A DNA stretch of 64,000 bases from a bacterium 1XD42-54. Lineage in GTDB: Bacteria; Bacillota; Clostridia; Lachnospirales; Lachnospiraceae. Location: assembly GCA_003612585.1 (NCBI GenBank), contig RAZH01000002.1:310001-374000 (forward strand). Direction: 5' to 3'. The position numbers were made by a program, and so were the translations under genes. Below the pieces are notes generated by a model. That model did not search any database and was not told the origin of the DNA. It saw only the letters and a program-made list of their open reading frames with translations. This document shows, piece by piece, positions 27,569-39,007 of the stretch. The number at the start of each line of letters is the position of its first letter. Positions within the stretch are counted from its first letter, which is position 1.

Positions 27569-28189
27569 ATGAGATTATATATTGTTAGACACGGGGAAAC
27601 GCCGTGGAATGCGATGCTCCGGCTTCAGGGGCAGACAGACACGAGACTGAATGAAAAGGGGCGCGCGCTTGCGCGTCTCACAGGGGCAGCTCTGCAGGAA
27701 GTCCCGTTTGATCTTGTTGTTTCCAGCCCGCTGCATCGGGCCAGGGAGACGGCAGAGCTGATTCTGGGTGAAAGAAAGATACCGATACTGGAGGATGCGC
27801 GGATTGGAGAAATTAGTTTTGGAGAGCTGGAGGGAAAACAGCTCTCCAAAGAGGAAAAAAACGATCCGTGTTCGGAATTTTACTGCTTTTTCCATGATCC
27901 GGCGCATTATATTCCGCCGGAAGGCGGGGAGACGGTTGCTTCGCTGCTTGAGCGGACACGTGTATTTTTGGATGAATTGAAGGAGCGGAAGGAATGGCAG
28001 GATAAGACGATCCTGATTTCTTCCCATGGAGCAGCCGTGCGTGCGCTTCTGGCAGCGATTAAGGGGCTTTCGCCGAAGGATTTCTGGCAGAACGGAGTCC
28101 CGAAAAACTGTGCGGTTTCGATTGTTGATCTGGAGGACGGAGCTTGGATTATAAAAGAACAGGATGTAGTGTATTATGAAAACGTCTGA
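27569..28189 (+). CDS. Histidine phosphatase family protein (phosphoglycerate mutase-like)
   Basis: A 206 aa member of the branch-1 histidine phosphatase superfamily. The catalytic phospho-histidine motif [12 protein letters not shown] is at residues 3-14. LNEKGRALA, a Glu-containing EISFGELEG segment, and the second catalytic His in [13 protein letters not shown] near 150 are present. It is likely a phosphatase (for example of phosphorylated sugars or cobalamin intermediates) rather than a true glycolytic mutase, which is longer. An in-frame GTG lies six bases before the ATG. Its end overlaps queA by 14 bases, so the two are probably translated together, although a functional link is not obvious. 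Confidence 0.85.
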
Positions 28190-29204
28190 TTTTTATTTTA
28201 ATTTGCCGCAGGAGCTGATTGCGCAGGACCCGCTGGAGGACCGCAGTGCGTCAAGGCTTCTGGTGCTGGGAAAGGAAAGCGGCAGTATCACACACCGGCA
28301 TTTTACGGATATTCTGGATTATCTGCGGCCGGGTGACTGTCTGGTGCTCAATAATACAAAGGTTATTCCGGCAAGGCTTTACGGTGTGCGGGAAGGGACC
28401 GGTGCAGTGATTGAGATCCTGCTTTTGAAGCGAAGGGAACATGATATCTGGGAGACGCTGGTAAAGCCAGGCAAAAAGGCAAAGCCAGGGACTAAGCTGA
28501 TCTTCGGAGACGGGATTTTGCAGGGTGAGGTACTGGATATTGTGGAGGAAGGCAACCGCCTGATTCAGTTTTCCTATGAAGGGATTTTTGAAGAGATTCT
28601 GGACAAGCTTGGCCAGATGCCGCTTCCGCCTTATATTACGCATGAACTGAAAGATAAAAACCGATATCAGACCGTCTATGCAAAACACGAAGGCTCGGCG
28701 GCGGCGCCGACGGCCGGGTTGCATTTTACGCCAAAGCTGCTTGAGCAGGTGAGAGATCAGGGGATTCAAATTGCAGAGGTGACGCTTCATGTGGGGCTTG
28801 GCACATTCCGGCCGGTTAAGGTGGAGGATGTCACACAGCACCATATGCATTCGGAATTTTATGAGGTGACAGAAGAAGCCGCTTCTTTGATACGACAGAC
28901 AAAAGCTTCCGGTGGACGGGTGATCTGTGTCGGAACAACAAGCTGCCGTACGATTGAGTCCGTAGCAACACGTTTTGATGGAAATATCCGCGCGTGCAGT
29001 GGCTGGACTGAGATTTTTATTTATCCGGGATACCAGTTTCAACTCATGGACGGTTTGATTACAAATTTCCATCTGCCGGAATCGACGCTTTTGATGCTCG
29101 TTTCGGCGCTGGCAGGGAAGGAGCATATTTTACATGCCTATGAAGCGGCAGTGAAGGAGGAATATCGGTTCTTCTCATTTGGGGATGCCATGTTTATCGT
29201 TTAA
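28176..29204 (+). CDS. queA: S-adenosylmethionine:tRNA ribosyltransferase-isomerase
   Basis: Transfers and isomerises the ribosyl group of S-adenosylmethionine onto 7-aminomethyl-7-deazaguanine in tRNA, giving epoxyqueuosine. The 342 aa length is typical. Signatures are [14 protein letters not shown] at the start, [14 protein letters not shown] near 52-65, the central APTAGLHFT motif near 180, THVGLGTF-like [11 protein letters not shown] near 210, and [15 protein letters not shown] near the C-terminus. It starts inside the end of the phosphatase gene and is followed by a terminator. No other queuosine genes are in the window. Confidence 0.97.
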
Positions 29205-29300
29205 CACCGCTTTTTAGTATTTGTTAGGGATAAAAAAGAAGCAAAGAACAGCGAAGAAACAATGTTAGTTCGTTTCAACACAAGCATAGAAATTATTAGC

Positions 29301-29340
29301 GGACAGCGTTCGGGATAATCCAAGCGGCTGTCCATTTTTT
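29301..29340 (+). terminator. Terminator after queA
   Basis: GGACAGC (29301-29307) and GCTGTCC (29327-29333) form a stem with a 19-base loop, followed by ATTTTTT. Confidence 0.6.
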
Positions 29341-29607
29341 ATGACATTTGTGCAATAAAAGACAGATTGTCATCTGAAATAAAAATTCCGCTTCTGAGGC
29401 TTCAGACAAACGGAAGCGGGGAGGCTGAAAAAATCAGAACAGCGCTGCGAAATAATCGGATCTCCTGAGAGGTGGAGGTTCTGTTCGGGCATAAATATGA
29501 GACTTTGTTTTAAAGTATGTTAAGAAATGTTAAGAATTGTGCCGATATTTTTTAATATTATCGTGCTAAAGTATAAGAGATTGTGCAATGACAGGAGAGG
29601 AGGGACT
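29341..29607 (+). other. Structured leader region before the Dlt-like operon, unassigned
   Basis: No convincing gene is seen. CCGCTTC (29389-29395) pairs with GAAGCGG (29413-29419). CAGAAC (29435-29440) pairs with GTTCTG (29478-29483), with an inner CTCC/GGAG stem, and GAACAG/CTGTTC offers an overlapping alternative. A repeated GTTAAGAA lies near 29520-29536, and A+T-rich sequence with TATAAG (29572-29577) runs up to the first gene. It does not match a T-box or any riboswitch that I can recognise. Confidence 0.4.
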
Positions 29608-31113
29608 ATGAAAAATATACTGGAGCTTTTGGAAGAGACAGAAGCAAAAAGGAAAGATCAGCCGGCTGTGGATGATGGCTGTATGTGTTTGACGTATACA
29701 GAGCTTGTGGAATTATCGCAGAAAATTGGGACAAAGCTGAGCGGAATGATTGGGCAGGGAGATCCGGTGGTGGTGTTGGCGGAAAAAAGTGCAATGGTTC
29801 TCGCTGCGATGTTTGGCGTGGTATATGCAGGAGGTTTTTATGTTCCTGTCAGTTTGCAGCAGCCGTCCGCGCGGATACATAAGATTCTGGAAACCGTTCA
29901 GGCGGGAGCAGTGATTACAGATCGGGCGAATGCGAAGATGCTGCATGACTGTAATTATCAGGGGACGGTTCTGTTTCTCGAAGATCTGACTCAGGGACAG
30001 AAGGATTCGAAAAAACTGGAGCAGATACGGTTAAGAAGCAAAGAGACAGACCGGCTTTACGGGATATTTACCTCAGGTTCTACCGGAAATCCGAAGGGGA
30101 TTGTCGTGAGTCATAGATCCGTGATTGATTTTATCGGCCACTTTACAGAGCTTTTTGAGATAAAGGAAAAAGATGTTTTAGGAAATCAGGCGCCGTTTGA
30201 CTTTGATGTTTCTGTGAAAGATATTTATTCCTGTGTGGCAACAGGCGCCACGCTTGTGATTATACCGAAAAGTATGTTTTCAACGCCGTCTGTACTCGTG
30301 GATTATCTGTGTGAAAAGAAGGTAACGACACTGATTTGGGCCGTTTCGGCGCTGTGTCTGGTGTCAGGTTTGAAGGGATTGGAATATCGCGTACCGGAGC
30401 ATGTCAGAAGAGTGCTGTTCAGCGGCGAGAGTATGCCAGCTGTTCATCTGAGGCTGTGGCAGAAAGCATTGCCGCAGGCACGCTTTGTGAATCTGTATGG
30501 TCCGACCGAGATTACGTGTAACTGTACGTGGTATGCGGTTCCAGAGACGATATCAGATACGGAAAAGCTTCCGATCGGAAGGGCATTTCCGGGCAGACGG
30601 GTATTTTTGTTGGATGACGACGAAAATGAGGTCTGTGCAGAGGGGGAAACCGGAGAAATCTGCGTGTCAGGGGAATCGCTTGCCGAGGGGTATTATCATA
30701 ATCCGGAGCAGACGCAGGAACGATTTTTGGTATCTGCGTCAGGAGAACGGTTTTACCGGACCGGAGACGTGGGTTATTTCGGGAAAGACGGATTGTTGTA
30801 TTTTGCCGGTCGCAGAGATTTTCAGATCAAGCATATGGGCCACAGAATCGAGTTGGAGGAAATTGAGGCTGTGTTAAACGGGCTTCCGGGGGTTTGGCGC
30901 AGCTGCTGTGTGTTTGACCAGGAGAAACAGAGAATCCTTGCCTATTATGCGGGCGAGCCGGAGCCGGCTGAGGTGCGCAGAAGGATGAAAGAAGGATTGC
31001 CGGTGTACATGGTACCGCACAAATTTGTGAAAGTGGACGAGATGCCAGTGACGAAAAATGGCAAGCTTGACCGGGCCTGGTTTGGTAAGCTTGCGAAAGG
31101 AGCGGCCAGATGA
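29608..31113 (+). CDS. Amino acid adenylation enzyme (DltA-like)
   Basis: Stand-alone NRPS-type adenylation enzyme, about 501 aa, predicted to activate an amino acid with ATP and load it on the carrier protein encoded two genes on. Motifs in order: IFTSGSTGNPKGIVVSH (A3 P-loop, about residue 155), PFDFDVSVKDIY (A4, with the Asp that normally holds the alpha-amino group), NLYGPTEITC (A5), YRTGDVGYF (A7), GRRDFQIKHMGHRIE (A8) and PVTKNGKLDR (A10 catalytic Lys). The ATG at 29608 follows GGAGAGGAGGG; the frame extends to 29527 without a ribosome site. Overall it most resembles DltA. The amino acid is not determinable by eye and need not be D-alanine given the decarboxylase next to it. Confidence 0.85.
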   Translation: MKNILELLEETEAKRKDQPAVDDGCMCLTYTELVELSQKIGTKLSGMIGQGDPVVVLAEKSAMVLAAMFGVVYAGGFYVPVSLQQPSARIHKILETVQAGAVITDRANAKMLHDCNYQGTVLFLEDLTQGQKDSKKLEQIRLRSKETDRLYGIFTSGSTGNPKGIVVSHRSVIDFIGHFTELFEIKEKDVLGNQAPFDFDVSVKDIYSCVATGATLVIIPKSMFSTPSVLVDYLCEKKVTTLIWAVSALCLVSGLKGLEYRVPEHVRRVLFSGESMPAVHLRLWQKALPQARFVNLYGPTEITCNCTWYAVPETISDTEKLPIGRAFPGRRVFLLDDDENEVCAEGETGEICVSGESLAEGYYHNPEQTQERFLVSASGERFYRTGDVGYFGKDGLLYFAGRRDFQIKHMGHRIELEEIEAVLNGLPGVWRSCCVFDQEKQRILAYYAGEPEPAEVRRRMKEGLPVYMVPHKFVKVDEMPVTKNGKLDRAWFGKLAKGAAR

Positions 31114-32333
31114 ATCGGAAAATTCTGGAATACGGTGCACATGCGTACGGGACACCGTTGTACATATTTGACCTGGATGCGCTGGCAGATGAAGTGCATA
31201 GAATACGCGCCTGCCTGGACCAAAAAGCAGAGCTTTGTTATGCAATGAAAGCAAATCCTTTTCTGACCGGCTCTTTTGCAGAATTGACAGACCGGATTGA
31301 AGTTTGCTCGATGGGAGAATTTCGGATATGTCGGGAGCTTGGAATCCATGCGGACAGGCTGGTGATATCCGGTGTCCTGAAAAAAGAGGAGGATTTGCTG
31401 GAAATTCTGGATTACTGCCAAGAAAACAGTGTTTATACGGCAGAATCCATGCGTCAGTTGCGTTGCCTTGCCGGGTGGGCCGAAAGCCATCAGAAAACGC
31501 TTCGCGTATATCCAAGGCTGACCAGTGGAAATCAGTTCGGTATGGATGAAGAGACAATCCGGCATCTGGTGCAGACACGGGCAGAATATCCTTTTTTGAA
31601 GATACAGGGGCTTCATTTTTTTTCCGGCACAGGAAAACGGAGACAGAAAGCGATCGAAAAAGAGCTCCGGTATCTCGATGAATTTTTGCAGAACATAGAG
31701 CAGGAGGCGCAGTTTTCGTTCGCGGAGCTCGAGTATGGACCGGGGATTGGTGTTCCGTATTTTATGGATGAAGAAATCGAGACTTTTTCGGATGAAGGCC
31801 TCCGTATGATTGCAGAAACGATTGACGGCATGAAGTGGAGCGGCCGTGTGCGTCTGGAACTTGGCCGTGCGCTTGCGGCGCGCTGTGGCTGTTATCTTAC
31901 CACGATCAGGGATGTAAAATGCAGCAGAGATAAAAATTACTGTATTGTGGACGGAGGCATTCATCAAATAAACTATGACGGGCAGATTCGCGGGATGTAT
32001 CAGCCTCATGTCATGTTGCTGCCATCAGAGAACAGCGTGACCGGACAGGAAGACGAAAACAGCGAAACTGCGGCGGATCGGGCATGGACTGTGTGCGGTT
32101 CTTTATGTACGGCAAATGACGTTTTGTGTCAGATCACATTGGAAAAAGAGCCGGAAGAAGGCGATGTTCTTGTTTTTGAACGCACCGGCGCATATTCTGT
32201 GACAGAAGGAATGGCACTGTTTCTGAGCCACGAACTTCCAGGAATTGTTTGTTACAGTGAGAAAGATGGCTGGAAGCCTGCCAGAGAGCGTCAGGAGCTA
32301 TACCAGTGGAACATGTGGAAGCAAACAAAGTAG
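31110..32333 (+). CDS. Fold-III PLP-dependent decarboxylase (DAP/ornithine decarboxylase or BtrK-like)
   Basis: A 407 aa alanine-racemase-fold decarboxylase. The PLP lysine lies in CYAMKANP (near residue 47). EVCSMGEF, the HFFSGTGKR loop, a glycine-rich YGPGIGVPYF and ELGRALAARCG (phosphate and PLP binding, near 250) follow. The C-terminal barrel carries CGSLCTANDVL (catalytic Cys and Asp) and ERTGAYS. This is the LysA/ODC group IV architecture, which includes BtrK of butirosin synthesis, an enzyme that decarboxylates an aminoacyl group while it is held on a carrier protein. The ATGA overlap with the adenylation gene and the carrier protein downstream favour that role, but a free amino acid substrate is also possible. 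Confidence 0.82.
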   Translation: MNRKILEYGAHAYGTPLYIFDLDALADEVHRIRACLDQKAELCYAMKANPFLTGSFAELTDRIEVCSMGEFRICRELGIHADRLVISGVLKKEEDLLEILDYCQENSVYTAESMRQLRCLAGWAESHQKTLRVYPRLTSGNQFGMDEETIRHLVQTRAEYPFLKIQGLHFFSGTGKRRQKAIEKELRYLDEFLQNIEQEAQFSFAELEYGPGIGVPYFMDEEIETFSDEGLRMIAETIDGMKWSGRVRLELGRALAARCGCYLTTIRDVKCSRDKNYCIVDGGIHQINYDGQIRGMYQPHVMLLPSENSVTGQEDENSETAADRAWTVCGSLCTANDVLCQITLEKEPEEGDVLVFERTGAYSVTEGMALFLSHELPGIVCYSEKDGWKPARERQELYQWNMWKQTK

Positions 32334-32388
32334 TAAGAAACGAATGAAAGAGAAAGGAACAGAACGATAAGTCTGAGGAGGAAGCATG

Positions 32389-32619
32389 ATGGAGAAAGTA
32401 ATAGAAATTTTAATGGATATTGATGACAGTGTGGATTATGAGACAGAAGAACGGTTGATTGACGACCGGATTCTGGATTCATTCGGTCTGATTTCCCTGG
32501 TAGCGGAGTTTGAAAATGAGTTTGGTGTCCGCATTGAGGCCACGGATATGATTCCGGCAAACTTTAACTCTGCCAGAGCAATGTGGGCCATGATACAGCG
32601 GCTCATGGAGAGGTGCTAA
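32389..32619 (+). CDS. Acyl/aminoacyl carrier protein (DltC-like)
   Basis: A 76 aa carrier protein with the phosphopantetheine attachment Ser in DSFGLISLVAEFENEF (about residues 34-49), four predicted helices and acidic composition. It should receive the activated amino acid from the adenylation enzyme and pass it to the MBOAT protein at the membrane, as DltC does. The ATG at 32389 is six bases from GAGGAGG; ATG 32386 is possible. The stop is directly followed by the MBOAT start codon (TAA then ATG). Confidence 0.88.
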   Translation: MEKVIEILMDIDDSVDYETEERLIDDRILDSFGLISLVAEFENEFGVRIEATDMIPANFNSARAMWAMIQRLMERC

Positions 32620-34209
32620 ATGGCATACCATACGAATTTATATCTGTTTCTTTTTTTGCCGGCGGTGCTTCTGCTGTATCAGATGGCGCCGCGCAGATGG
32701 CGAAGCGGCGTGCTGCTGTGCAGCAGTTATCTGTTCTTTGCTTCAATCAGCAAAGGCCTGGTTATCTACCTTGCGGGGAGCACGCTTCTGACGTACGGCA
32801 CAGGGCTTGCGCTGCTGCATCTGAAACAAAAGTGCAGCAGTGAGACGGCAGAGGTTGCGCGTGCGCAGGCACAGAACATCAGAGAAAAATTCCGGAAAAA
32901 AGAAAAACTTGTTCTTCTGGCCGGGATTTTCTCTCTGGTGTTTCTTTTGGGTTATCTGAAATACTATAACTTTTTTGCAGACAATTTAAACCGACTGGTT
33001 GAAAGAGCAGGCGGCGCTTCCTTTCTTTCTCTAAAAAGGCTGGCTGTACCGGTCGGGATTTCTTTTTATACGCTGGAAGCGATCGGGTACATGATGGATG
33101 TCTACTGGGATCGTATGATCGCGGAACGTCGTCCGTGGAAGCTGGCATTGTTTCTTTCCTTTTTCCCCAAAATGATGGAAGGCCCGATTTGCAGTTATTC
33201 TGCTCTGTCTGAGCAGCTAGGTACAGGCGATGCGCTCAAAGCAGAAAATCTGACGCATGGATTTGTACGGATTCTCTGGGGGCTGTTTAAAAAGATGGTA
33301 GTGGCTGACAGGCTGTATCTGATGGTAAATACAGTATTTGATAATTACAAAGGCTACAGCGGCATGGTGATTGTGATAGGGGCCATTGCTTATACGATAC
33401 AGCTTTATATGGAGTTTTCCGGGAGTATTGATATTGTGATCGGAAGCGGAAGACTGTTTGGCATTGTACTGCCAGAGAATTTCCGTCAGCCGTTCTGCGC
33501 GGTGAATGCGGCGGACTTCTGGCGCAGATGGCACATATCGCTTGGTGTGTGGCTGAAAACGTATGTGTTTTATCCGGTGTCTGTATCGGAATATGTAAAG
33601 AAGTGGAACCGTTTTGCGAGAAAGCGTTTTGGAAAATACTGGGCGAAGGTAGGGCTTTCTGCGCTGTGCCTGTTTCCGGTATGGTTTTTAAACGGACTGT
33701 GGCATGGGGCAAAGTGGAGCTATCTGTTCTATGGTATGTATTATTTTGTGATTCTGCTGATTGGCGTGATGGCGGAACCGCTTGGAAGCCAGGTGCGCAA
33801 AGTGCTGCATGTAAAAGAGAACAGCAGGTGGTGGAGATGCCTTCAGATCGGCAAAACATGGCTCATCATTTTTACCGGAGAACTGTTTTTCAGAGCGGAT
33901 ACACTGCGTGCCGGCCTTGCGATGTTCGGAAGTATTTTCCGGGATTTTGATTTTGCTACCTTATGGAATGGCACGATTTTGAACCTCGGACTTGGGAGAG
34001 CTGATTTGTTGGCAATTGTGCTGGGGTGTATTGTGGTTGGAATTGTGGGTTCATTAAAGGAACGAAATCGCCCGGTACTGGATGGCCTGCTTCAGGCCAG
34101 GATGCCGCTTCGCTGGGCGGTGTACTGTACTTTGATTCTGGCTGTTGTGATTTTGGGCGCGTATGGCAGTGGTTATCAGGAGGTGGATCTGATTTATGCA
34201 GGATTTTAA
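32620..34209 (+). CDS. MBOAT-family O-acyltransferase (DltB-like)
   Basis: Integral membrane acyltransferase of 529 aa with about 11 hydrophobic segments. The family marks are present: [20 protein letters not shown], the [10 protein letters not shown] loop, the [10 protein letters not shown] segment and the catalytic His in [13 protein letters not shown] (near residue 360). In the Dlt pathway this protein takes an aminoacyl group from the carrier protein and passes it across the membrane. Because the operon has a decarboxylase, the transferred group may not be D-alanine. A related alginate/cellulose acetylation enzyme would use acetyl groups, but the adjacent carrier protein argues for the Dlt type. 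It overlaps the next gene by 14 bases. Confidence 0.87.
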
Positions 34210-35173
34210 AAACTGGAAGACAGTAAAAAGAGGCTGCATTTTTTTCCTTTTGGTGACGGCGCTGCTTTTTGTGGCATCCCGAATGGTGGACCCTGTTTTC
34301 TGGTATGCAAAAGGGAACATAGAGGATCGGAACAAGTGCATTGCAGGTGTTTTGTCGGAGGAACCAAATACCGTTGATGTTCTGGTATTGGGAGATAGTG
34401 AGACGTATACTTCATTTTCTCCGTTGCAGCTATGGTCAGAACAGGGGATTCCTGCCTATGTCTGCGGGCAGTCAGGGCAGTGGATGCAGGAGGCTTACTA
34501 TATTTAAAAAAAGGTTCTCAAAAAACAGGATTTAAAGACAGTGGTTTTAGAAACGAATATGTTTTTCCGCTGCCAGGGGATTATGCAGGATATGCAGCTT
34601 TCGCTTGGGGAGCTGACGGCGTATTATTTTCCGATTTTCCGGTATCACAATCTCTGGAAGGAGGCGTTTGACAAGGAAGAAGATGCGCTGACGAGCTACA
34701 AAGGGTTTGAGATCCGGTCTGCTGTGAAACCATATGAGGGCGGAGATTATATGCAGGAAGAGAAGGAGCAGGATAAGCTGTCCGCTTACGGGCAGTTATA
34801 CTTTGATCAGATCCTTCGCCTTTGCAGGAAGCACGAAATCCAGGTGGTTTTGTACAGTGTGCCCTCGCCTTCCAACTGTAATTACCACACCCATGATGTG
34901 ATCAGCAACCTTGCAAAGAAAAAAGAGATATTGTATGTGGATCTGAATCTGAAGCTGGAAGAGCTTGGGATTGACTGGAAAAAAGACAGCCTTGACGGCG
35001 GAGATCATCTGAATTTGTCAGGGGCAAAGAAAGCAACTGCTTATTTGGGCCAATATCTGAAAGACGCGTGTGGTCTCGAGGACAGAAGGGGTCAGGACGC
35101 GTACGACGAATGGGATAAAAAGGCGAAAAAATATAAAAAGAAGGTTCAGAAAATTTTGAAGTCCAGAAAATAG
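34196..35173 (+). pseudogene. DltD-like SGNH-fold protein interrupted by an in-frame TAA
   Basis: One reading frame (325 codons) from ATG 34196, behind AGGAGGTG, to TAG 35171-35173 is broken only by TAA at 34505-34507. Both halves are in the same frame, so this is a nonsense change and not a frameshift; TTA (Leu) to TAA would explain it. The first 103 residues hold an N-terminal membrane helix and the SGNH block [12 protein letters not shown] with the catalytic Ser. The second part holds VVLETNMFFR and the DGGDHLNLSG block with the catalytic Asp and His. A GTG at 34541 could restart the second part, but separated catalytic residues make activity unlikely. In intact Dlt systems DltD works with DltB on the outer face. 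A sequencing error or strain variant is possible. Confidence 0.8.
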
Positions 35174-35198
35174 AATATCTCAATAGATTGATATGATG

Positions 35199-35226
35199 GG
35201 AAGAGGCGTACCTCTTCCTTTTTTGT
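35199..35226 (+). terminator. Terminator of the Dlt-like operon
   Basis: GGAAGAGG (35199-35206), a four-base loop, CCTCTTCC (35211-35218) and a T run: a near-ideal intrinsic terminator. Confidence 0.9.
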
Positions 35227-35500
35227 ATTTATGTAATTGTATATGCGGAGTTTTTGTGGAAAAAGAAGTACAAAGATGAACAGCAGATGAGGGAATATGT
35301 GAAAAAATTTGCGAGAAAACAAAGCATATGAAACAGGTAAATGACCATATGTCTGAATACTCTTTGATACAAGAAGAAAAAGAAATAGCAGAACAGCCAC
35401 TTGACGGCACCGGCCGAAAATGATACGATAGGGAAGTCTGTACATAATCTAGTAGATGCAGACCTTTGAAAATACATGGTATTGTAGAGGACGGGTGTTT
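35227..35500 (+). other. Intergenic region with possible gene remnant and a promoter
   Basis: No complete gene is seen. One plus-strand frame from about 35236 to TGA 35329-35331 would encode a hydrophobic stretch and then a basic helix (AEFLWKKKYKDEQQ) that looks protein-like, but it has no start codon or ribosome site. The rest is A+T-rich filler leading to the promoter at 35401. Confidence 0.3.
35401..35429 (+). promoter_or_regulatory. Candidate promoter before the NrdG-like gene
   Basis: TTGACG (35401-35406), 17 bases, TACGAT (35424-35429), about 70 bases before the start codon. Confidence 0.5.
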
Positions 35501-35992
35501 ATGCGTTATCATAATATTACGAAGGACGATATGTTAAATGGTGATGGCCTGCGTGTAGTGCTCTGGGTTGCAGGCTGTGGACATCACTGTGAGGAATGCC
35601 AGAATCCGGTCACATGGGATTCCGAGGGAGGAATACCGTTTGAAAAAAAGGACAAAGAAGAGCTGTTTGCACAGCTTGAAAAGTCTTATGTTTCAGGGAT
35701 TACATTCAGCGGAGGAGATCCTCTGTTTCCGACAAATGAGCCGGAGGTGCTGGCGCTTGCCAAAGAAATTCGCAGAGAATTTCCCGGAAAAACAATCTGG
35801 CTGTACACCGGGTATCTCTGGGAGTATGTGAAAAACAGGGAGATTGCAAAGTACATTGATGTGCTGGTTGACGGGCCTTATGTGAAGCAGCTGCGCGATA
35901 CGAAACTTTTCTGGCGGGGAAGTGCTAATCAGCGGGTGATTGACGTAAGAGAGTCACTGGAATCAGGCAAGGTAGTATTGCACTGCGGCTGA
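35501..35992 (+). CDS. nrdG: Anaerobic ribonucleotide reductase activating protein (radical SAM)
   Basis: A 163 aa glycyl-radical-enzyme activase of the NrdG type. It reductively cleaves S-adenosylmethionine to place the glycyl radical on class III ribonucleotide reductase NrdD. The radical SAM cluster motif is CGHHCEEC (C-x3-C-x2-C, about residues 27-34), after NGDGLRVVLWVAGC. It is followed by TFSGGDPL and the WLYTGYLWE segment, then a DVLVDGPY end motif shared with NrdG. The ATG at 35501 is preceded by AGAGGACGGG. nrdD is not adjacent, so identity rests on sequence pattern only. Confidence 0.88.
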   Translation: MRYHNITKDDMLNGDGLRVVLWVAGCGHHCEECQNPVTWDSEGGIPFEKKDKEELFAQLEKSYVSGITFSGGDPLFPTNEPEVLALAKEIRREFPGKTIWLYTGYLWEYVKNREIAKYIDVLVDGPYVKQLRDTKLFWRGSANQRVIDVRESLESGKVVLHCG

Positions 35993-36064
35993 TTGATGGA
36001 AAAACGGAAAAGAAAAAATAGAAAAAAACAGAAAAAGCCAAAGAGGCTACAGACAGGAGTGCTT

Positions 36065-36499
36065 ATGAAACAGATTAAAATACAGTATCTTGATGATGAA
36101 ATCAAACGCCTTACGTATATCGACGGAAAATCAGATTGGATTGACCTGCGTGCGGCGGAAGAGGTGACGTTGAAAAAAGGCGAGTTCCGCATGATTCATC
36201 TTGGGGTTGCGATGCAGCTTCCAAAGGGGTATGAGGCGCATATCGTTCCGCGCAGTTCTACGTTCAAAAATTTCGGAATCATTCAGGTAAATCATATGGG
36301 AGTTGTGGACGAGACGTATGCTGGTCCTAATGACTGGTGGAGGATGCCTGTCCTGGCTGTAAGAGACACACAGATTCATAAGAATGACAGAATCTGTCAG
36401 TTCCGCATTATGGAGCATCAGCCGCAGATTCGATTTGAGGAATGCGAGCAGCTCGAAGCCCCGGACCGTGGAGGCTTTGGCAGTACTGGCATGAACTGA
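36065..36499 (+). CDS. dut: dUTP diphosphatase (dUTPase, trimeric type)
   Basis: Hydrolyses dUTP to dUMP and pyrophosphate, keeping uracil out of DNA and feeding thymidylate synthesis. The 144 aa length fits the homotrimeric family. Motifs: a [14 protein letters not shown] start, motif 2 [10 protein letters not shown], motif 3 [14 protein letters not shown] (catalytic Asp and uracil-binding Tyr) and a C-terminal GGFGSTG arm. The ATG at 36065 follows AGGAG; the open frame extends back to 35993 through a lysine-rich stretch without a ribosome site. It sits 72 bases after nrdG, a sensible pairing for deoxynucleotide supply. Confidence 0.93.
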
Positions 36500-36597
36500 C
36501 TGGAGGGAGAATATTTAAGATGACGGACAGGAAATGTCCGTTCAACTTATTAAAATGCACCAAATTGTATGAAAAGTTAAATAATTGGTAATTTTTG

Positions 36598-36627
36598 GCA
36601 TTCGCATGGATTTGCGGATGCTTTTTT
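36598..36627 (+). terminator. Terminator after dut
   Basis: GCATTCGCA (36598-36606) and TGCGGATGC (36613-36621) form a stem around six bases, then six T. A second hairpin, ACGGACA/TGTCCGT, lies at about 36527-36542. Confidence 0.8.
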
Positions 36628-37348: not shown

Positions 37349-39007
37349 ATGGGGGAGAAGAAGATGCGGTTTCAGGAGAAGCTTCGCAGATACTCAAAAT
37401 CGGAAATCTGGGAAGAATATTGTGGCTTTCTGGATATGACGATGGAAGAGTATATGAACATGCAGAAGCGCCTCGTGGCAGAGGAGATTAAACTGTGGTG
37501 TGGCAGTGAGCTTGGAAAGCGGATTTTAAACGGGAAGTGTCCCGGTACGCTGGAAGAGTTTCGTGCCATGGTTCCACTTACGACTTACGATGATTATGCA
37601 GATATTCTGTTGCGAAAAGAGACGACCAGCCTTCCGGAGGAGCCGGTACTTTGGATACAGACGACGTGGGAAGGCGGGATGTATCCGATGAAAATGGCGC
37701 CGTATACGAAGAGTATGCTGGACACTTATAAACGAAATGTCATGGCCTGTTTTATTCTGGCAACCGGAAAAGAGCGCGGCGATTTTGACATATCAGTTAC
37801 GGATCATATGCTGTACGCTCTGGCGCCGCTTCCGTATGCGACAGGGCTTTTGCCATTGCTGCTTCATGATGAGATTGATATTGAATATTTGCCTCCTGTC
37901 AAGGAAGCAGTCCATATGAGTTTTCAGGAACGCAATGCAAAAGGATTTAAAATGGGCCTGAAAAAAGGAATTGAGTACTTTTTTGGGCTTGGCAGCGTGA
38001 CGTATTTTGTTAGTAAAAGTCTTTCGGCTTTACAGGAAGGCGGGAAAGGTTCACTTGCCGGAAAACTGAACCAGATTTCTCCGAAGATGATGCTGCGCTA
38101 TGTCTCAGCCAGAAAAAGATGCAGACAGGAGGAGCGGGAGCTTTTGCCGCGCGATCTGTTTACACTGAAAGGTTTTATGTGTGCCGGAACGGATAACTGG
38201 TGCTACAAAGACGAGCTGGAAGAGATGTGGGGCATCCGTCCGATGGAGATTTTTGCCGGAACAGAACCGACATGTGTGGGAACTGAGGCATGGTCCAGGA
38301 GCGGTATGTACTTTTTTCCGGATGCCTGCTTTTATGAGTTTATACCGGAAAACGAAATGTACAGAAATCTGGACGACCCGTCTTATGTGCCGCGCACTTA
38401 TCTGATGGATGAGCTGACAGCGGGAGAGAAATATGAGATTGTAGTTACAGTCTTAAAAGGCGGTGCGTTTGCGCGGTATCGTGTGGGTGACGTATACCGT
38501 TGTCTTGGAAACGGCTGCCGGGAAGATGGCACGAAGATTCCAAGATTTTCCTATATAGACCGGGTACCTTGGGTGATTGATATTGCCGGATTTACCCGGA
38601 TTACGGAAAAATCGATTCGTCATGCGATCGAATTATCCGGTCTGAAGATTGAGGATTGGTTTGCAGTGAAGGAATATACAAAGGAAAACAGGCCGCAGCT
38701 TCATATGTATGTGGAGCTTAGGCGAGACTGTATTTCAGGAGCAGCGCTTGGCAGAGAGATTCTGAAAGAGCATTTGAGCGTGTATGTAAAATATGTGGAT
38801 GATGATTATAAGGATCTGAAAAAGATTCTTGGCATGGACCCATTAAATATTACGGTAGTAAAATGCGGAACCTTTGAGAAATATGAGAGCGTGTATGGAT
38901 GCAAAATACGTAAAATAAATCCACCGGCCTGCGAGGTGGCGGACTTTGTTGCGCTGCAAAGCGCCAGAGGCCCGCTGTGGAAGGGAGGCAGTTATGGTGA
39001 GCTATAG
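37349..39007 (+). CDS. GH3-family acyl-adenylating enzyme
   Basis: A 552 aa protein of the GH3 auxin-responsive-promoter family, ANL-fold enzymes that adenylate a carboxylic acid and pass it to an amine. Evidence: LWCGSELGKRIL and TTYDDYADILL in the N-terminal part, a QTTWEGGMYPMKMAPYTK segment (near 105) in place of the usual S/T-G-T-S-x-G-x-x-K nucleotide loop, FAGTEPTCVGTEAW (near 300) for the adenine site, RYRVGDVYRCLG (near 375) and a C-terminal mobile domain. Substrates of bacterial members are mostly unknown. An alternative start is ATG 37364. It overlaps the downstream signalling gene by 14 bases. Confidence 0.78.
   Translation: MGEKKMRFQEKLRRYSKSEIWEEYCGFLDMTMEEYMNMQKRLVAEEIKLWCGSELGKRILNGKCPGTLEEFRAMVPLTTYDDYADILLRKETTSLPEEPVLWIQTTWEGGMYPMKMAPYTKSMLDTYKRNVMACFILATGKERGDFDISVTDHMLYALAPLPYATGLLPLLLHDEIDIEYLPPVKEAVHMSFQERNAKGFKMGLKKGIEYFFGLGSVTYFVSKSLSALQEGGKGSLAGKLNQISPKMMLRYVSARKRCRQEERELLPRDLFTLKGFMCAGTDNWCYKDELEEMWGIRPMEIFAGTEPTCVGTEAWSRSGMYFFPDACFYEFIPENEMYRNLDDPSYVPRTYLMDELTAGEKYEIVVTVLKGGAFARYRVGDVYRCLGNGCREDGTKIPRFSYIDRVPWVIDIAGFTRITEKSIRHAIELSGLKIEDWFAVKEYTKENRPQLHMYVELRRDCISGAALGREILKEHLSVYVKYVDDDYKDLKKILGMDPLNITVVKCGTFEKYESVYGCKIRKINPPACEVADFVALQSARGPLWKGGSYGEL

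Follow-up and report, generated by a model that had tools for sequence, protein, structure and literature searches.

Why should an operon that resembles dltABCD carry a decarboxylase? The question is raised by five genes on the forward strand of a 64,000-nucleotide stretch (hereafter the window, G000:C23:310001-374000) of the 3.70 Mb genome of the Lachnospiraceae bacterium 1XD42-54, which encode a stand-alone amino-acid adenylation enzyme, a fold-III pyridoxal phosphate (PLP) decarboxylase, a phosphopantetheine carrier protein, an MBOAT acyltransferase and an SGNH protein (Table 1). The original prediction, made from the letters of the DNA, was that the operon loads a dicarboxylic amino acid, decarboxylates it on the carrier and esterifies an envelope polymer with the product. 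With somewhat more confidence than doubt, we propose that the carrier is charged with Asp or Glu, which loses a carboxylate there and is passed on as a beta-alanyl or 4-aminobutyryl (GABA) group that is esterified to an envelope polymer; the Asp/Glu part of the prediction is thereby retained, while its other option, meso-diaminopimelate (meso-DAP) giving a lysyl group, is disfavoured by the absence of the LysA motifs from the decarboxylase. In the proposed sequence of steps, the adenylation enzyme would activate Asp or Glu, most likely by the side-chain carboxylate, and load the carrier, the BtrK-type decarboxylase would strip the alpha-carboxylate on the carrier to leave a thioester that is beta-alanyl if Asp was loaded and 4-aminobutyryl if Glu was, and the MBOAT and its SGNH partner would carry the group across the membrane to a hydroxyl of the envelope polymer, with a less negative surface charge as the putative physiological outcome.

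Results

The decarboxylase belongs to a recurrent gene set

A contig scan with three decarboxylases found 246 relatives, and the best 80 of these 246 were taken as loci; they were selected by decarboxylase similarity alone, and the presence of the decarboxylase in them is itself not informative. The adenylation gene accompanies it in 80/80 loci, the MBOAT in 78, the carrier in 77 and the SGNH gene in 71, and the distance from the adenylation stop to the decarboxylase start (start codons chosen by script) is at most 20 bases in 74 of the 80. The order adenylation-decarboxylase-carrier-MBOAT-SGNH occurs in 52 loci, MBOAT-SGNH-adenylation-decarboxylase-carrier in 13, an arrangement without SGNH in 8 and others in 7, with further orders in other genomes (L014, L016, L154, L155 and L156). 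Such constancy of content under a shuffled order argues for a joint function. The conserved operon order for which the original prediction proposed a genome search is seen as an adenylation-decarboxylase-MBOAT set that recurs in several orders, and its view of the decarboxylase as a true member of a conserved Dlt-like operon agrees with this gene set, with the retention of the decarboxylase in the related operons, and with the coupling of pocket code to partner gene described below.

Many of the named host records are metagenome bins; most are Lachnospiraceae (Mediterraneibacter, Blautia, Lacrimispora, Anaerocolumna, Dorea and Merdimonas), and one host, Lactimicrobium, is of the Erysipelotrichaceae. 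In 45 of 82 loci genes for a histidine kinase and for a regulator of the OmpR type (assigned by Pfam on one example each) are no more than 6 kb away, which fits a regulated use of the operon; no two-component system stands beside the operon of the window.

The decarboxylase most likely acts on a carrier-bound substrate

The decarboxylase contains the Orn/DAP decarboxylase domain of Pfam and reaches 157.4 bits with TIGR03099 (cut-off 478.45), 143 with the lysA model TIGR01048 (cut-off 297.9) and 19.6 with the alr model. Its best solved structure by sequence is BtrK (E 4.7e-26), followed by SbnH (9.8e-20) and the first DAP decarboxylase (1.2e-18), and its predicted structure (predicted local distance difference test, pLDDT, 85) places BtrK 7ru7 at Foldseek rank 1 with a template modelling (TM) score of 0.83, barely ahead of D-ornithine/lysine decarboxylase and others, so that the comparison with BtrK drawn in the original prediction holds by sequence and, narrowly, by fold. 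The alignment of 80 rows used here comprises the window and 79 loci of the decarboxylase-found set, L037 (adenylation gene ending at a contig edge) and L064 (decarboxylase frame of 243 aa) having been dropped; the PLP Lys47 and Cys333 are present in 80/80 rows and Thr334 in 79/80. The dropped L064:9001-10137, from [Ruminococcus] faecis JCM 15917, stays open for 243 aa only and its similarity runs on, pointing to a draft error or a broken gene.

A 29-row comparison gave the family the motifs LC(T/S) and Y(D/Y)GQ (YDGG in one outlying row), of which LCT is common to BtrK, a protein that we label VinO-like from its neighbouring genes, and the TIGR03099 protein of S. meliloti, whereas the LysA rows (that of the genome itself and that of E. 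coli) have LCE and RPAMY, both absent from the decarboxylase of the window. In the tree, the family and proteins of another cluster type form one clade (100/100), which joins the VinO-like row at 93/92 on long branches that leave the nearest outside relative unsure. Judged from these motifs and from BtrK as the nearest solved structure, the enzyme is most likely a decarboxylase of the carrier-bound type, like BtrK and VinO.

The genome also encodes a second, distant decarboxylase (27% identity), which has the LysA motifs and scores 290.7 bits with the lysA model (cut-off 297.9). In view of this separate LysA gene and of the missing LCE and RPAMY motifs, the reading of the window decarboxylase as the housekeeping LysA was rejected.

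The adenylation pocket differs from that of DltA

The adenylation enzyme has the AMP-binding domain of Pfam and scores above the cut-off with TIGR01733 (353.2 bits, cut-off 317.4) and below it with the DltA model TIGR01734 (317.4 bits, cut-off 559.85). Its pocket code, ten positions in GrsA numbering that we assigned from motifs, follows the pattern DVKS(L/M)SLCNK found in most of the 80 aligned rows, with D235, K239, C330, N331 and K517 invariant in 80/80. The canonical DltA of the same genome has DLMSLCTVAK, the D-Ala code in two canonical DltA of the order, from which the window code differs at 6 of 10 positions; a load other than D-Ala, as originally predicted, is thereby supported.

The Glu code of the surfactin initiation module is DAKDLGVVDK (no paper printing that code turned up in our search). 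Asp235 is the usual contact of the alpha-amine, and a change of K239 shifts the Glu domain of that module towards Gln (PMC11355689). Read by analogy, the conserved Lys239 suggests a second carboxylate on the substrate, and because this lysine would be idle in a pocket for beta-alanine or GABA, loading would precede decarboxylation.

Sister operons pair other codes with other enzymes

The adenylation alignment, searched against 295 genomes of the order, matched in 70 genomes, and codes were compared with neighbouring genes in 68 of these (G124 and G183, where the match lies inside large synthetases, and a truncated row, G186:C246, were left out). The related adenylation enzyme shares its stretch with an MBOAT in 61 of the 75 rows read. 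A decarboxylase lies in the same stretch in 12 genomes with the code DVKS.S.CNK and in 4 with IAR..SQASK (a subtype comprising L014:5654-11235, L016:5149-12060, L149, L153, L154 and L158), and in G201 and G186, which also have a DVKS.S.CNK gene, the decarboxylase is encoded at a separate genomic site. The decarboxylase is hence present in 18/18 genomes with either code and in 0/50 with other codes only (Fisher p 8e-17, which overstates the association as the rows share ancestry), and Dlt-like operons of the order that are without the decarboxylase carry other codes.

Two further partner genes were found. In 17 genomes an Asp/Glu racemase (TIGR00035, 212.9 and 198.6 bits in two examples) lies by an adenylation gene with a DAKS-type code (e.g. 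L129:1904-7171 and L135:7450-9682); this code also occurs without a racemase in the stretch in 4 genomes, to which G082 (variant code) and a G165 fragment are to be added. In 17/17 genomes with the code DSKS..IVDK, which form one family (L126:2468-7670, L127 and L128 among them), a GNAT gene (PF00583 in two examples) sits between the adenylation gene and the carrier. Lys239 is kept in 17/17 racemase rows, 19/19 GNAT rows and the main decarboxylase rows. The adjacent racemase indicates that these operons share Asp or Glu as their type of substrate, and a dicarboxylic substrate, as the original prediction had it, is thus supported both by Lys239 and by the sister operons with a racemase, which are themselves likely to be a system for a D-acidic amino acid. 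G281 has an adenylation-carrier pair (L216:3780-5496) with the code DVKAFSMGNK and neither decarboxylase nor MBOAT in the stretch read.

When 85 adenylation enzymes were placed in a tree, the two canonical DltA separated from the other 83, which are Dlt-like, and the partner label changes 4 times for the decarboxylase (2 of them forced by well-supported branches), 3 times for the racemase and once for GNAT. At even confidence, we propose that Lachnospirales-like bacteria and at least one member of the Erysipelotrichaceae share a modular Dlt-like family in which one swapped tailoring enzyme would set the surface group, namely a decarboxylase (beta-alanyl or GABA), a racemase (D-aspartyl or D-glutamyl) or a GNAT protein (possibly an N-acylated group), each with its own code, and in which carrier-bound decarboxylation would replace D-alanylation at the surface.

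The carrier and the transfer proteins

The carrier falls narrowly below the PF00550 cut-off (20.7 against 20.8 bits) and is also below cut-off with NCBIfam AmcB (38.6 bits) and DltC (PRK05087, 33.8 bits, cut-off 68), and its serine is present in 78/78 rows, five carrier open reading frames (ORFs) having been shortened to the last 78 residues for alignment. The MBOAT passes PF03062 (33.5 bits, cut-off 27), has TIGR04091 DltB as its sole NCBIfam match (141.7 bits, below the cut-off of 375), and keeps His362 of the W-H-G motif in all 13 rows compared.

After 103 codons the SGNH gene runs into an in-frame TAA, and the same frame is open on to 35173; the five-gene unit of the original prediction is therefore right in its positions and wrong in taking this frame to be open. 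The 70 complete homologues in other loci are intact, at 312-365 aa, and across 15 rows the residues G-D-S and D.G.H do not vary. One intact homologue (L035) is predicted to have an SGNH fold with an N-terminal helix (pLDDT 88), with TesA-like and other SGNH hydrolases as best structural matches and PatB and DltD lower; in Foldseek, E. faecium DltD 6pfx stands at rank 31 (E 1e-4, TM 0.41), and among the 50 matches listed by VIA-align there is no DltD. A search of the two open parts with hidden Markov models (HMMs) gave no DltD match at E 0.01 and a weak SGNH match in Pfam. Membership of DltD was dropped on these HMM and fold results, and SGNH protein is the safe label.

The canonical dlt operon and other genes of the genome

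A canonical dlt operon lies elsewhere in the genome (L123:2483-6798, G000 contig 11), with DltA (565.7 bits), DltB (482.6) and DltD (308.7) above their cut-offs and a DltC-like frame, read by eye, between the genes. The LysA gene has directly upstream of it a sulfatase-fold, LtaS-like membrane protein (PF00884, L020:9491-11470); the canonical dlt operon and this protein together make a teichoic polymer a possible acceptor. A further MBOAT-SGNH pair (L124:3696-6808, G000 contig 31) scores 508 bits with the MBOAT alignment and has no adjoining adenylation gene.

Layout and surroundings of the operon

The five genes, the overlaps and the TAA-ATG junction given in the original prediction were all confirmed on the forward strand: the adenylation and decarboxylase genes overlap by 4 bases, 52 bases separate decarboxylase and carrier, carrier and MBOAT meet in the TAA-ATG junction, MBOAT and SGNH genes overlap by 14 bases, and a stem-loop lies directly 3' of the SGNH gene, the last of the operon.

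Table 1. Positions of the operon features in the window and the evidence for each
Feature	Position	Strand	Evidence
Stand-alone amino-acid adenylation enzyme, DltA-like, code DVKSLSLCNK	29608..31113	+	TIGR01733 above cut-off; code
Fold-III PLP decarboxylase, BtrK type, PLP Lys47, catalytic-type Cys333 in GSLCT	31110..32333	+	BtrK best PDB and Foldseek match
Phosphopantetheine carrier protein, Ser32 in LDSFG	32386..32619	+	PF00550, AmcB and DltC scores below cut-offs
MBOAT acyltransferase, DltB-like	32620..34209	+	PF03062 above cut-off, TIGR04091 below
SGNH (DltD-like) protein gene, interrupted by in-frame TAA at 34505-34507	34196..35173	+	Intact homologues; SGNH fold (L035)
Intrinsic-terminator-like stem-loop, then T run	35198..35219	+	Consensus scan; function predicted

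The operon is flanked by queA (507.5 bits) and nrdG (187.7 bits); at E 1e-10 the 80 loci gave no match to either of them, and six other ORFs of the window have scattered weaker matches there. With these two genes as flanks, a link of the operon to a neighbouring polysaccharide cluster was rejected. A foreign base composition was likewise rejected, as the five genes have a guanine-cytosine content of 44-49% against 44.8% for the window (standard deviation 3.4 over 1.5-kb stretches), which is unremarkable. Rfam matched nothing within 28000-36600 of the window. At 37349-39007, 2 kb past the operon, a protein like those of the GH3 family, which are known chiefly as plant amino-acid conjugases, scores 45.9 bits with PF23571, stays slightly below the cut-off of PF03321, and has no match in NCBIfam.

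Distribution in the genus and the order

With a threshold of E 1e-100, chosen after viewing the results, the decarboxylase has matches in 20 of the order's 295 genomes, 12 of the 32 genomes in that search being weaker; one of these weaker matches, L013 (G051), and a weak match from a separate search, L012 (G040), group with LysA in the tree. A matching adenylation gene is present in 18 of the 20, and in 12 of these genomes an MBOAT lies in one fetched region with the adenylation gene and the decarboxylase; the other two, G114 and G215, hold a different kind of cluster, whose adenylation gene is only distantly related. Within the genus of the window, G003 and G007 have a divergent subtype in the order adenylation-carrier-decarboxylase, and G032 has a different cluster. 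The closest matches are G318, of another genus, at 52% identity and, among the best 80, L021, of unknown kinship, at 57%, and gain of the operon by transfer is plausible. BtrK-like decarboxylases stand with distant adenylation enzymes in L015 (G032), L159 (G114) and L226 (G215), a cluster type that looks like a small-molecule pathway; L015 also encodes a carrier, a radical SAM protein and a ligase resembling NAD synthase.

Discussion

Points against the proposal

Several observations weigh against carrier-bound decarboxylation of Asp or Glu for transfer to an envelope polymer, and the regiochemistry is its weak step. Ordinary Glu domains that activate the alpha-carboxylate likewise combine Asp235 with Lys239; Asp or Glu loaded by the alpha-carboxylate would offer no free alpha-carboxylate to a PLP decarboxylase, so that alpha-loading, which the code suits too, could be used by the decarboxylase only with a diamino diacid. 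Of the 22 rows for which no partner gene was recognised, moreover, 11 have Lys239 too, and in the second decarboxylase-linked code, IAR..SQASK, it is replaced by Arg and Asp235 is missing. This code points to an amine contact that can vary, which is compatible with side-chain loading. The link between code and partner gene is partly shared ancestry, the LysA motifs were derived from just two LysA rows, and L012, which groups with LysA, also has LCT. On the side of transfer, no polymer-synthesis or polysaccharide gene lies beside the operon of the window, and the stop in the SGNH gene, which may be a mutation, a sequencing error or a site of read-through, may impair transfer in the sequenced strain. 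In L145, L148, L149, L153 and L158 the adenylation-carrier-decarboxylase trio stands without an MBOAT in the stretch read; L153 and L158 adjoin polysaccharide-like genes, L153 next to an acyltransferase-3 protein, and these relatives suggest that different transferases can receive the acyl group. Finally, 32 of 35 other species of the genus have no match at E 1e-20, and the operon type is patchy within its own genus.

Alternative explanations

The order of the steps could be reversed, with free Asp or Glu decarboxylated first and the finished beta-alanine or GABA loaded and transferred in a Dlt-like manner. The gene set would then be identical, and there is the precedent of IdnL3, a PLP decarboxylase from the same antibiotic class that acts on free beta-glutamate before loading (PMC11284099), but Lys239, present in all 80 rows, would have no role with a substrate that lacks a second carboxylate, and the nearest solved relative, BtrK, uses a carrier-bound substrate, and we regard this order as unlikely. 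Less probable still is that meso-DAP or another diamino diacid is attached by one of its ends and loses the carboxylate of the opposite end, which would yield a lysyl thioester and then a lysyl ester: this would be chemically simplest if the alpha-carboxylate were activated, and the fold family does include DAP decarboxylase, with 143 bits to the lysA model, but LCE and RPAMY are replaced by LC(T/S) and Y(D/Y)GQ, and a cell that has free lysine would seem to gain nothing from the detour. Very improbable is ordinary D-alanylation with the fold-III protein as alanine racemase, which shares the N-terminal fold and reaches 19.6 bits with alr; the decarboxylase has the conserved Cys and the C-terminal domain, the pocket code departs from the D-Ala code at 6 of 10 positions and the canonical dlt operon is separate, and the racemase reading was rejected on these grounds.

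The acceptor is a question of its own. MBOAT and SGNH proteins cooperate in peptidoglycan O-acetylation, and such pairs serve teichoic acid, peptidoglycan and polysaccharides. An acceptor other than a teichoic-type wall polymer, such as an exopolysaccharide, a peptidoglycan sugar, a lipid or a secreted metabolite, would fit the appearance of PatB in the structural comparison of the SGNH protein and the polysaccharide-like genes that adjoin the trio relatives L153, L158 and that of S. meliloti pSymB, but the sole NCBIfam match of the MBOAT is DltB (141.7 bits) and no polysaccharide gene adjoins the operon, and we hold such an acceptor to be doubtful. Returning to the favoured route through Asp or Glu on the carrier, the choice between its two products can be narrowed a little. 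4-Aminobutyryl thioesters are prone to cyclisation. For this reason, and by the precedents of VinN/VinO and FlvN (PMC11284099), a beta-alanyl group is slightly favoured over GABA.

Significance

How sensitive a cell is to cationic host peptides and lantibiotics depends on its surface charge. Should beta-alanyl or GABA prove to be the product, we know of no such group at the surface of other bacteria, and mass spectrometry could test for it directly; carrier-bound decarboxylation is familiar to us only from antibiotic assembly. In the literature, titles and abstract openings described no operon of the Dlt-like kind that includes a gene for a decarboxylase, a racemase or a GNAT protein, a search mostly without subscription papers and thus weak evidence of novelty. 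A survey of eight gut commensals by HMM and BLAST, among them '...formicigenerans', B. obeum, Coprococcus eutactus and B. luti, reports a complete dltABCD in none (PMC10877564). In our set of the order, DltA is above cut-off in 2 of 295 genomes, a canonical operon such as L123 being rare there, against 70 of 295 with the related adenylation enzyme, and the usual test for 'dlt' may therefore miss envelope-modifying systems.

Comparison with known systems

The operon resembles DltABCD in uniting an adenylation enzyme, a carrier, an MBOAT and an SGNH protein, with DltA among the top models of the adenylation enzyme, and differs from it in DltA, DltB and DltC scores below the cut-offs, another code, the added decarboxylase and a separate place in the tree. 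With the BtrI-BtrK pair of butirosin synthesis, where the carrier is loaded by an ATP-grasp ligase, it shares the decarboxylase fold, the LCT motif and a stand-alone carrier, whereas the product there is an antibiotic side chain and the window operon has an adenylation enzyme and an MBOAT. The substrate of BtrK is BtrI-S-Glu, which it converts to the thioester of GABA (PMC7857480).

The operon has the same core of three genes as the trio of TIGR03098, TIGR03099 ('exosortase A system-associated') and a carrier in S. meliloti pSymB, yet the window enzymes score far below those models (209.8 bits against 592.35 and 157.4 against 478.45), and the trio is without an annotated MBOAT in the stretch read; we know of no function for it. 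On pSymB (L163:5316-8445) the trio lies by glycosyltransferases and a polysaccharide deacetylase, and may decorate a polysaccharide.

In the VinN structure, the contacts of the pocket to the carboxylate reportedly lie elsewhere than in the window code. The VinN-VinL-VinO system and FlvN are like the operon in having an Asp-type adenylation enzyme, a stand-alone carrier and a PLP decarboxylase that acts on the loaded carrier: VinN loads 3-MeAsp, not the decarboxylated acid, on VinL, VinO acts after the thioester has formed, and FlvN recognises Asp (PMC11284099). The Vin system feeds a polyketide synthase and includes neither an MBOAT nor an SGNH protein. Compared with all of these, the operon described here would be a new variant among Dlt-like systems, at least three of which are distinguished by the tailoring enzyme that has been exchanged; the original prediction is partly supported and is widened to this extent.

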